64,000 bases of DNA from Maribacter algarum (ex Lu et al. 2025) (nom. illeg.) (GTDB lineage: Bacteria; Bacteroidota; Bacteroidia; Flavobacteriales; Flavobacteriaceae): contig CANMAW010000008.1 in NCBI GenBank assembly GCA_947495915.1, positions 62,001 through 126,000 on the forward strand. The letters are read 5' to 3'. Position 1 is the first letter of the stretch; every line of letters starts with the position of its first letter. The translations under genes and the position numbers were made by a program. Of the stretch, positions 29,122 to 32,458 are shown piece after piece. Under the pieces are notes generated by a model. The model was not told where the DNA came from. It ran no database searches and saw only the letters and a program-made list of their open reading frames with translations.

Positions 29122-31179
29122 ATGAGCATTCAACTCCTTTCTTTTGATATTGATAATACCCTTATAGAATTAGAAACACGTAAAACCAATTTTCCTTCTG
29201 CATGGAGTCAGATTGAAGACGCCGAAGCCGTTATCTTATGTTATAACACAGGTCGCCTTCTTGATGATGTATTGCAACTTGTAAAACGCCAAATTCTTCC
29301 TGAGCCACAATATATTATTAGTGGAGTTGGCACGAATATATACGATGTAAAAGCTAAAAAATTATTAAAAGAGTTTTCTCAAATTTTAGAAGAAGGTTGG
29401 AATCTTGATTTGGTAAAAGAAAAAATTGAGTCATTACCATTACCTATAAGTTCACAACCGAAACGTTTTCAACACGATTTTAAAAAGAGTTATTTTTTTG
29501 AAAATGCATCTTCTAGAGATCTGAAGAAAATCGAAAAAACCCTTATCACATCTGACCTTGATGTAAACGTAGTGTATTCAGGCAATAAATTTCTTGATAT
29601 TCTTCCGAAGTATGCCAACAAAGGGAATGCCTTACAATGGCTTCTTGCTGAATTAGATATAAAAGCCGAACAGACCATAGTTGCTGGCGATAGTGGTAAT
29701 GATAGCGCCATGTTTAATATTCCTAAAATTAAAGGTATTGTTGTGGCTAATGCACAAGAAGAACTATTTAAATCAGTGACTGATTTAGATGTCTATTTAT
29801 CAAAGAACATTCAAAGTAAAGGTGTTTTAGAGGGACTTCATCATTATAAGGTCATACCTCAAGAGATTTTTGAAAACTATGATCACAATGAAATTCAAGA
29901 TGAAAAAATCATACAGCATTTAGACGAGCAAGAAAATAAGCCGGTCACAGACGATGAACTTAAATTCATTATTGAAGGGTATGACAAAGCTGTTGAAGCG
30001 GTTAAACTGAATATTACCCGATTAGGGTTTTCCGCCTGTTCATTGACGCATAATTCAAGTACAGGTACCGATGAAAATTACAGAAGTGTTTGGGGTAGAG
30101 ATGGGGCTATAACTGTTATTGGCACTATTCCGCTAATTGGTGACGAAGCCATTAGAAACTGTCAACGTCAGACTTTAGAAACCCTAATTAGCAATATCAC
30201 TCTGAACGGTCAAATTCCCTCAAACGTTAGCATCGACACCAATGTACCTGACTATTCAGGAGTTGGCGGCATCTGTTCTATTGACAGTGGTTTATGGTTT
30301 ATTATTGCATTTTACGAATACGTGAATGCAACCAACGAACATGAATTATTACGCAAGCACCTTCCCGCTTTAAAAAAAGTAATGAATTGGTTAAGTGCAC
30401 AAGATGGTAATAATGATGCTTTATTAGAAATACCTGAAGCGGGAGACTGGACAGATTTGTTTGGTCGTAGTTATAATGTTTTATATGATGAAATTCTTTG
30501 GTACAGAGCCAATGTATGCTTTGGTAGACTATTAGAAGAAATTGGTGAGCACGATGATGCAGGCGCTTATTTACGGTGGTCTCAAGTCATTAAAAAAGCT
30601 ATTATTTCAAGTTTCTGGCCAAGCACACAAACCGATCGCGCTTCCCCTTTCGCTTTTGCTGATCAGCAATTCTCGCTAGGTGATGCCAGTTATCTCATCG
30701 CACAAGTTACGCCATTTGATTTTAGTTGGCGTTGTGATGTGTACGGTAATGTTTTGGCATATTTATTTGATGTACTAGACACAGAAAAAGCCCAATCTGC
30801 TTTTAGATTTATGTGGGGCGTAGGTGTCAACGAACCTTACCCTGTGGCTAATGTATATCCAGTGGTTTCTCCAGGAGATCCTGATTGGAGACCTTATTAC
30901 GCCGTAAACCTTTTAAACCTACCTAATCACTATCACAATGGAGGTATTTGGCCCTTTGTTGGTAGCGCTTGGGTGCGTTTTGTTCATAAACTAGGGTTGG
31001 CGTCAGTTGCCAGAAAAGAACTGTACAAACTAGCCAAATTAAATCATTTAGGAATTAATCAAGAGTGGGAATTTAATGAATGGGCACATGGCCAAACTGG
31101 TCGACCAATGGGTAAAATTTACCAAGCATGGTCTGCTGCCGAATACATTTCTACTTGTCACTATTTAAAAATAAAATAA
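29122..31179 (+). CDS. Fusion of sucrose-phosphate-phosphatase-like HAD domain and glucosidase/invertase-like (alpha/alpha)6 domain
   Basis: 685 residues in two parts. Residues 1 to about 250 are a HAD phosphatase of the S6PP type: nucleophile DIDNTLIE (Asp9, Asp11), NKGNALQWLL and AGDSGNDSAMF. Residues about 275-685 form a GH63/GH100-like or amylo-glucosidase-like barrel. WGRDGAI (Asp327) and GDWTD (Asp442) are candidate acidic sites, and NEWAHGQTGRPMGKIYQAW near the end echoes neutral invertases. The next gene, 1 bp away, is an SPS-like transferase. So one polypeptide could both finish the synthesis of a disaccharide (dephosphorylation) and hydrolyse it. The exact sugar is inferred. Confidence 0.85.
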   Translation: MSIQLLSFDIDNTLIELETRKTNFPSAWSQIEDAEAVILCYNTGRLLDDVLQLVKRQILPEPQYIISGVGTNIYDVKAKKLLKEFSQILEEGWNLDLVKEKIESLPLPISSQPKRFQHDFKKSYFFENASSRDLKKIEKTLITSDLDVNVVYSGNKFLDILPKYANKGNALQWLLAELDIKAEQTIVAGDSGNDSAMFNIPKIKGIVVANAQEELFKSVTDLDVYLSKNIQSKGVLEGLHHYKVIPQEIFENYDHNEIQDEKIIQHLDEQENKPVTDDELKFIIEGYDKAVEAVKLNITRLGFSACSLTHNSSTGTDENYRSVWGRDGAITVIGTIPLIGDEAIRNCQRQTLETLISNITLNGQIPSNVSIDTNVPDYSGVGGICSIDSGLWFIIAFYEYVNATNEHELLRKHLPALKKVMNWLSAQDGNNDALLEIPEAGDWTDLFGRSYNVLYDEILWYRANVCFGRLLEEIGEHDDAGAYLRWSQVIKKAIISSFWPSTQTDRASPFAFADQQFSLGDASYLIAQVTPFDFSWRCDVYGNVLAYLFDVLDTEKAQSAFRFMWGVGVNEPYPVANVYPVVSPGDPDWRPYYAVNLLNLPNHYHNGGIWPFVGSAWVRFVHKLGLASVARKELYKLAKLNHLGINQEWEFNEWAHGQTGRPMGKIYQAWSAAEYISTCHYLKIK

Positions 31180-31180
31180 A

Positions 31181-32458
31181 ATGGACTCAATTTTAATGAT
31201 ATCTGTACACGGATATGTAGGTGCTGAACCCGAATTAGGAAAACCTGATACTGGCGGGCAAGTTGTGTATGTATTAGAGTTAGCAGATAGATTCAGTAGG
31301 TTAGGAAAACGCGTTGACCTTCTCACAAGGCAATTCGAAGATCAACCTGAATATGACCTAGTCAATGAAAACTATAGTGTTTGGAGAGTTCCATTTGGTG
31401 GCAAAAAATTCATTCGTAAAGAAGATATGCACGATCATCTAAACCAATTTGTAACCAACACGCTTTCCGCTATTAAAAAACAAGGCAAACGTTATGATAT
31501 TATTTATTCCCATTACTGGGATGCTGGTTGGGCTGGGCAAAAAATCGCTGAAGAATTAGGGGTGCCTCACGTGCACACTCCGCACTCTTTAGGTTGGTGG
31601 AAACGCTATAGTATGGGTACTGATATGGAAGAAAAAGAGATGGAGAAAACCTATCGCTTTGAAGAACGCATTCGCAAAGAATATTTTGTGTATCAGATGT
31701 GTAATCATGTCATTGCAACCACACTACCTCAAGTAGAACTTCTTCAACAACATTATGATTTGCTCGAAAGACGTTGTAAAATGATTCCTCCAGGAATTGA
31801 TGAGAATCGCTTTTTCCCTGTTCCTAGTGGTGAAGTGAAACGCTTACGAGATAAATACGGAATGCAGAGTAAAGATATTTTGACACTCGGTCGAATGGCG
31901 CATAACAAAGGTTATGATTTACTAATTCAAGCCTTACCCACCTTGTTTTCTCTAGTACCTGATGCGCGCTTAGTAGCAGCCATTGGTACTGACAATTCAA
32001 AACAAGACCTTTCGGGAATTAAAATTTTAAAAGACGAAGCAAAAAAATTAGGTGTTGAAGACAAAATCGTTTGGAGTGGATTTGTAGAAGATGATGACTT
32101 AGCCAATATGTATCGATCTGCACAAGTATTTGCAATGCCTTCAAGATATGAACCTTTTGGCATGGTATCTATTGAAGCCATGGCCTGCGGAACTCCTTCT
32201 ATCATTACCACCAACGGGGGATTATTTGAACTGATTAAATTTGGCACACATGCCTTATATTCTGACCCTCATCGCGCAGTAGAATTTGGCACCATGTTAG
32301 CATTACCGCTACTTTACCCTAATTTACATAATGAACTTTCTGTTGCCGGAGCACGGTTTTCACGACGTAATTTTGGTTGGACAGGAATTGCAAAACAAAT
32401 TATTGAAATTTTCAGTTTTTCGATAAATATGCAATCTTTTCAAACAAGAGTTGGATAA
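31181..32458 (+). CDS. Sucrose-phosphate-synthase-like glycosyltransferase (GT4)
   Basis: A 425-residue GT-B enzyme. The N-terminal DTGGQVVYVLELA and HVHTPHSLGWWKR segments are hallmarks of the sucrose synthase/sucrose-phosphate synthase branch of GT4. GRMAHNKGYDLLIQAL opens the nucleotide-sugar domain. The E-x7-E motif is EPFGMVSIE (Glu324, Glu332) and is followed by ACGTPSIITTNGG. It likely transfers a hexose from NDP-sugar to a sugar phosphate such as fructose-6-P. It starts 1 bp after the phosphatase-glycosidase fusion, so the two are translationally linked. Mannosylfructose-phosphate or similar products cannot be excluded. Confidence 0.87.
   Translation: MDSILMISVHGYVGAEPELGKPDTGGQVVYVLELADRFSRLGKRVDLLTRQFEDQPEYDLVNENYSVWRVPFGGKKFIRKEDMHDHLNQFVTNTLSAIKKQGKRYDIIYSHYWDAGWAGQKIAEELGVPHVHTPHSLGWWKRYSMGTDMEEKEMEKTYRFEERIRKEYFVYQMCNHVIATTLPQVELLQQHYDLLERRCKMIPPGIDENRFFPVPSGEVKRLRDKYGMQSKDILTLGRMAHNKGYDLLIQALPTLFSLVPDARLVAAIGTDNSKQDLSGIKILKDEAKKLGVEDKIVWSGFVEDDDLANMYRSAQVFAMPSRYEPFGMVSIEAMACGTPSIITTNGGLFELIKFGTHALYSDPHRAVEFGTMLALPLLYPNLHNELSVAGARFSRRNFGWTGIAKQIIEIFSFSINMQSFQTRVG

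Follow-up and report, generated by a model that had tools for sequence, protein, structure and literature searches.

The mannosylfructose pathway of Agrobacterium joins a GT4 glycosyltransferase, MfpsA, to an S6PP-type HAD phosphatase, MfppA, like the gene pair described below; its phosphatase is a separate gene that, unlike ours, carries no glycosidase. The original mannosylfructose paper, by Torres and Salerno in 2007, names a family of mannosyltransferases in its title, and we know of no hydrolase for mannosylfructose. Excerpts of PMC2918589 describe mannosucrose (mannosylfructose) as a salt-induced solute of A. tumefaciens and report it from Agrobacterium and rhizobial isolates. On an Acidithiobacillus plasmid, sucrose-phosphate synthase (SPS), sucrose-phosphatase (SPP), invertase and PfkB kinase lie side by side. 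The pair studied here lies in a 64,000-nucleotide stretch of Maribacter algarum (Flavobacteriaceae; assembly GCA_947495915.1, contig CANMAW010000008.1, positions 62,001 to 126,000), called the window below. Its first gene encodes an S6PP-type phosphatase fused to an (alpha/alpha)6 glycosidase, and its second a GT4 glycosyltransferase. We think it likely that the two form a module in which a non-reducing glycosyl-fructose is made and turned over, whatever the hexose; for the fuller reading, an osmolyte or reserve with mannosylfructose as the product, the scales stand about level. Neither the individual activities nor a single locus that serves both synthesis and turnover is a new idea; the fusion and its tight linkage to the GT4 gene appear to be new, the open-licence literature that we searched having yielded no description of such a phosphatase-glycosidase fusion.

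The fusion is an open reading frame (ORF) of 685 amino acids (29122-31179, plus strand, ATG start), and the GT4 ORF (31181-32458, plus strand, 425 amino acids, ATG start) begins 1 nucleotide after it. The motifs DIDNTL, GDSGND, WGRDGAI, TGRPMGKIYQAW, DTGGQVVY and HTPHSLG are all present in the translations of the pair. ORFs, motifs and Pfam matches therefore agree with the original prediction, made from the letters of the window, of a single 685-residue frame with both an S6PP-type HAD and an (alpha/alpha)6 glycosidase, and a GT4 one base later. Since the 387 nucleotides between the fusion and the upstream ORF hold no listed ORF of at least 90 amino acids, and the downstream gene, a GntP permease, is on the opposite strand, the unit here is the two-gene pair. 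Promoter-like sites in the window were not above shuffles (12 versus 14.1).

The phosphatase domain takes up residues 1-250 (29122-29871, plus strand). Pfam finds S6PP (PF05116) at residues 5-243 (E=1.9e-63, 214.8 bits against a gathering score of 20.3), and the closest match by fold (Foldseek) and by profile is the Synechocystis SPP 1s2o, at 29% identity; on both counts the phosphatase is of the SPP type that had been predicted. It shares fold and motifs with the Synechocystis enzyme and differs from it in being fused and in falling under the curated SPP equivalog cut-offs (160.7 versus 183.65 for TIGR01485, 142.3 versus 209.75 for TIGR02471). Residues D9, D11, R45, K167, D190 and D194 are invariant in all 34 fused rows; the catalytic residues listed are D9 (29146-29148), D11 (29152-29154) and D190 (29689-29691), together with K167 and D194, on the plus strand. 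An acidic linker follows (residues 251-276, 29872-29949, plus strand), partly of low confidence in the AlphaFold2 model of the fusion (predicted local distance difference test, pLDDT, below 50 at residues 254-266; model mean 83).

The glycosidase domain (residues 277-685, 29950-31176, plus strand) is GH100-like by Foldseek, profile alignment and invariant acids. Two Pfam families match it alike, GDE_C (7.4e-16; 58.5 against a gathering score of 21) and Glyco_hydro_100 (PF12899; 2.6e-15; 56.5 against 23.6). In the Foldseek list for the fusion model, ranks 2-29 are the GH100 enzymes InvB, InvA and CINV of Anabaena and Arabidopsis (E 8.6e-12 to 1.5e-9, TM-score by target 0.64-0.71), and GH116 and glucosylglycerate hydrolase rank below them. 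A profile built from 44 relatives matches InvB at 3.1e-18, and the profile alignment sets D445 (30454-30456, plus strand) and E653 (31078-31080, plus strand) on Asp188 and Glu414 of InvA, as candidate acid and candidate base, respectively. An excerpt of PMC6995568 gives these two as the GH100 catalytic acids, with Arg430 of InvB as a third residue. Both D445 and E653 are invariant (47/47 rows), so that an invertase-like glycosidase, with the GH100 fold and both catalytic acids in place, is upheld; a lack of such acids, named beforehand as the finding that would speak against it, is not seen. The modelled loop holding D445 (residues 439-449) has a pLDDT under 50, and we therefore took no pocket geometry from the model. 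The domain thus has fold and aligned acids in common with the alkaline/neutral invertases InvA, InvB and CINV1, but is only 17-19% identical to them, forms its own clade and does not keep the equivalent of Arg430. That clade unites the fused and planctomycete glycosidase domains (support 99), apart from true GH100; its neighbours in the tree are standalone genes of Chloroflexi, Deinococcus, Paenibacillus and Variovorax (support 83, with long branches). The domain trees omitted three of 67 glycosidase rows and nine of 68 HAD rows.

The second gene encodes a predicted glycosyl-fructose-6-phosphate synthase, named so from its Pfam and NCBIfam matches, tree position, residues and co-occurrence with the fusion. 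The Pfam match to GT4 is at 2.1e-30. The SPS model TIGR02472 scores 203.1 bits, short of its curated cut-off of 576 and about equal to the MshA model (202 bits, cut-off 462.5), and none of the NCBIfam cell-wall and lipid transferase models came near these scores. A quick tree by maximum likelihood has 61 rows, of which 46 form a GT4 clade (support 99) that holds none of the comparison rows (seven SPS, six other GT4s and two MshA). The SPS rows are not one clade, and the deep joins are unsure owing to long branches; eight of 69 rows (six near-identical SPS, two truncated GT4s) were omitted. Since the protein lies below the curated SPS cut-off and its clade outside SPS, the names 'SPS' and 'sucrose' cannot be adopted; judged by its sequence, it is not a bona fide SPS. 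On this point the original prediction is not supported in the form it was given. Its expectation that the protein would stand apart from cell-wall and lipid transferases holds for the NCBIfam scores and for the other GT4s and MshA in the tree, in which no named cell-wall enzyme was included.

What the protein does keep are the SPS contacts to fructose-6-phosphate and phosphate, and here the prediction is supported. Contacts of the T. elongatus SPS (TeSPS) to fructose-6-phosphate, phosphate and donor sugar are given in an excerpt of PMC7264703; its residues Q51, R105, H158, R178 and E331 correspond to Q27, K80, H135, R163 and E324 here and are kept, lysine replacing R105 as it does in six of the seven SPS. 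By this alignment Q27 would contact fructose, K80 and R163 the phosphate, and H135 and E324 the donor sugar; the residues listed for the protein further include R238, N242, M328 and E332. As in SPS the motif GGQ is present, where MshA has GGM. The donor site differs: all 48 clade rows, the window and a putative MfpsA row among them, have N where SPS has R253 and M where it has L335, and none of the seven SPS does.

The fusion and the GT4 occur together. The family of the window was sampled with 199 genomes, close to one for each genus. Of these, 17 have a full-length fusion (above 900 bits), and they are exactly the genomes with a GT4 match at E<=1e-100; the two are adjacent in every one, with gaps of 4-121 nucleotides by match coordinates. 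Five other family genomes with partial matches (HAD or glycosidase alone) were excluded from the fusion count, and a same-genus genome in the sample (G057) has neither gene. A draw of 395 genomes from the phylum gave two full-length fusions, the window's own and one outside its family (G415; 54% identity, adjoining GT4 69%), so the pair is thinly spread; 13 partial matches, of HAD or glycosidase alone, were again excluded. A layout unusual for a flavobacterium, as had been supposed, is thus uncommon but not unique, and the supposed linkage of the two genes is borne out by this survey.

Scanning named genomes, we obtained 50 loci, classed by ORF analysis: 33 intact fusions, two cut or frame-broken (L030, L039), 10 standalone glycosidases and five fragments or sequences too short. 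The intact fusions carry the labels Saprospiraceae (Bacteroidota), Chloroflexi and Verrucomicrobia, with one bin each of Planctomyces and Acidobacteria; almost all are metagenome bins, and single labels are doubtful (e.g. 'Blastochloris' for L030). A GT4 43-77% identical to that of the window lies in the fetched stretch of 29 of the 33 (three cut at a contig end, one split into two ORFs), the fusion preceding it in L002-L005 and following it in the rest. Of the remaining four, L028 has an SPS instead, and L008, L016 and L029 have a genomic GT4 at 47%, 54% (partial) and 42% identity. In five loci with an unfused glycosidase (L032-L036, labelled Pirellulales three times and Planctomycetota once, one label being doubtful), the fetched stretch holds the GT4 in all five and the HAD in four. 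Full-length matches in 16 other same-family genomes and 33 intact fused ORFs elsewhere show that the fused layout is real and no artefact of this assembly. In one of the 16 family copies (L063 / G078) the glycosidase domain is interrupted by a TGA, through pseudogene formation or a sequencing error.

From these data we infer the activities, their direction and their physiological role as follows. The GT4 would transfer a hexose from a sugar nucleotide, with GDP-mannose favoured, to fructose-6-phosphate, and the phosphatase part of the fusion would remove the phosphate to give the free disaccharide. When the cell can do without the solute, the GH100-like part of the fusion would split it into hexose and fructose, probably as an inverting enzyme in which D445 is the acid and E653 the base. 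The fructose may be rephosphorylated by a PfkB kinase, whose gene adjoins the pair in some relatives. The strangest trait of the module is that the last synthetic and the first degradative step are fixed at 1:1, for which post-translational control or proofreading would be needed; ionic strength or phosphate are candidates for what would keep the hydrolase quiet during accumulation. Kinase genes next to the module in two groups fit the release of fructose and a kinase step: a PfkB-type gene lies directly 3' of the GT4 in six of 15 same-family loci (a Pfam scan covered one of these), and another between the HAD and glycosidase genes of the planctomycete L036. For two of these kinases, one from the family and that of L036, the NCBIfam models of ribokinase and fructokinase come closest, with no score reaching its cut-off. 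PfkB genes are present elsewhere in the window's genome. The 'self-contained' device of the original prediction is thus borne out only in part, since a fructose kinase would have to be supplied from such a distant gene. Tentatively, the fused domain might be a dedicated mannosylfructose hydrolase founding a glycosidase family beside GH100, its chain a switch that completes and destroys the osmolyte and, with the GT4, a portable osmolyte cycle found over several phyla.

Mannosylfructose is placed first because a putative Agrobacterium MfpsA sequence falls deep inside the GT4 clade. Among loci with at least 300 aligned residues, the identity of this putative MfpsA to Opitutaceae GT4s adjoining a fusion reaches 75%, and it is 48.8% identical to the GT4 of the window over nearly full length. 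A putative MfppA sequence groups with the fused HADs (support 98, long branch) and is 36.6% identical to the HAD of the window. Such agreement argues that the MfpsA sequence is real, which does not by itself make its label right. The two donor-site differences from SPS and the salt-induced solute of A. tumefaciens count for mannosylfructose as well. The window's genome holds a mannose-1-phosphate guanylyltransferase-like gene, below the two-domain model cut-off and not decisive. Mannosylfructose as the product is about an even call.

Several findings weigh against the proposed mannosylfructose cycle. The reference sequences for MfpsA and MfppA are putative, and no search result named them. The nearest folds of the glycosidase are sucrose-cleaving GH100 enzymes, and the equivalent of InvB Arg430 is not kept (39 of 47 rows have K there and eight another residue, in a gapped part of the alignment). 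In L028, an Akkermansiaceae bin, the fusion lies 8 nucleotides before a 736-amino-acid SPS (622.2 bits, cut-off 576), and no further GT4 match at 1e-30 was found in that genome. PfkB adjoins the pair in just six of 15 same-family loci, the window not being one of them, and in only one of the five planctomycete-type loci (L036), an ORF at the same place in L033 matching no Pfam family. Distant standalone relatives of the glycosidase adjoin genes for alpha-mannosidase (GH38), beta-N-acetylglucosaminidase, GH2, GH35 or rhamnosidase, and at all five such loci a GT4 of this kind is absent from the fetched stretch. Finally, the last synthetic step and a hydrolase on one chain carry the risk of a futile cycle.

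The strongest rival is a sucrose module: a divergent SPS that uses UDP- or ADP-glucose (the GT4), a neutral invertase (the glycosidase) and an SPP (the HAD); we consider it possible, if doubtful. It keeps its place because in L028 the partner of the fusion is a true SPS, the only GT4 found there at 1e-30. The SPP-like domain of this SPS (L028:8061-10271) is matched just from profile position 26 and so lacks its start, for which the fusion would supply a working phosphatase. The kinship to GH100 invertases speaks for sucrose as well, as does the like gene set of the Acidithiobacillus plasmid, in the order MFS-PfkB-GH100-SPS-HAD. The synthase there has an SPP-like domain of its own and passes the SPS cut-off, which that of the window fails; its invertase partner belongs to GH100 proper, with 624.8 bits where the window domain, fused to a phosphatase, has 56.5. 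In the literature, an excerpt of PMC3694870 has Rhodopirellula baltica accumulating sucrose under salt, which might be a parallel. Against sucrose stand the score of 203 versus 576 and the place of the GT4 outside the SPS rows, as well as its two donor-site differences. The putative MfpsA, lying within the clade, argues the same way. No GalU over the cut-off was found in the window's genome (best 49 bits), a weak point since only five of 14 controls pass and the reaction can also be carried out by enzymes of other families. UDPGP gave no match there, which decides nothing, the controls being silent too and UDPGP being rare in the family (13 of 199 genomes match, five over the cut-off). The doubt about sucrose voiced in the original prediction was well placed.

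Names in the literature do not settle the matter. According to an excerpt of PMC7356697, an exopolysaccharide cluster of Pontiella includes a GT4 that bears the name mfpsA, so the name alone proves nothing. In the part consulted of PMC13308351 (2026), a cyanobacterial mfppA is read as sucrose-making, by prediction. Glucosylsucrose synthase, the subject of an excerpt of PMC9909042, was considered here as a source of another GT4 product.

It is improbable that the glycosidase acts on another glycoside (a glucan, phospho-sugar or glycan), its fusion to the phosphatase serving to stabilise the protein or to channel a hexose common to both. The glycan-degrading neighbours of its distant relatives and its equal Pfam scores for GDE_C and GH100 would suit such a role, but the domain tracks the GT4-HAD pair across groups, even as separate genes, and is linked to it in 17/17 cases in the window's family. 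Less probable still is a proofreading role, with the glycosidase destroying a wrong disaccharide (e.g. sucrose made from a glucosyl donor) as a check fused beside the phosphatase: it would explain synthesis and a GH100-related, invertase-like domain on one chain, but the PfkB neighbour suggests a bulk flux of fructose.

We also tried to read the glycosidase substrate from the standalone relatives and rejected this approach, since their neighbours disagree (ROK kinase with ABC transporter, and phosphomannose isomerase, were found as well). Two such relatives on Deinococcus plasmids (L054, L084), annotated GH100, are clustered with GH38, beta-N-acetylglucosaminidase, aldolase and sugar-kinase genes. 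A Paracoccus plasmid (L052:5677-9269) carries a GT4 of the clade (57%), a separate S6PP HAD and a 514-amino-acid protein with a weak GH32N match (24.6 versus 22.1 bits) and no PDB match below 0.02; this protein, which we do not count as proof, is perhaps a different fructosidase-like hydrolase in the same role. MarR-type regulators lie near the GT4 in two planctomycete-type loci (L035:6389-6982, L036:11314-11994).

Of the 16 further loci in the family, 15 were read with their flanks. Upstream of the fusion, 14 of the 15 have a VWA gene, and 14 have an AAA gene; in L093:1087-3761 and its equivalents in L094-L106, these are a VWA-domain gene and an AAA/ChlI-like gene. The window pair adjoins no VWA, AAA or PfkB gene, so it sits elsewhere than the pairs of its relatives.

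The analysis predicts a conserved and apparently uncharacterised fusion of the final synthetic and the breakdown steps of a compatible solute. It also provides a protein set with which mannosylfructose could be tested as an osmolyte of flavobacteria, Verrucomicrobia and Planctomycetes, and it raises the testable puzzle of how a single chain would avoid a futile cycle.

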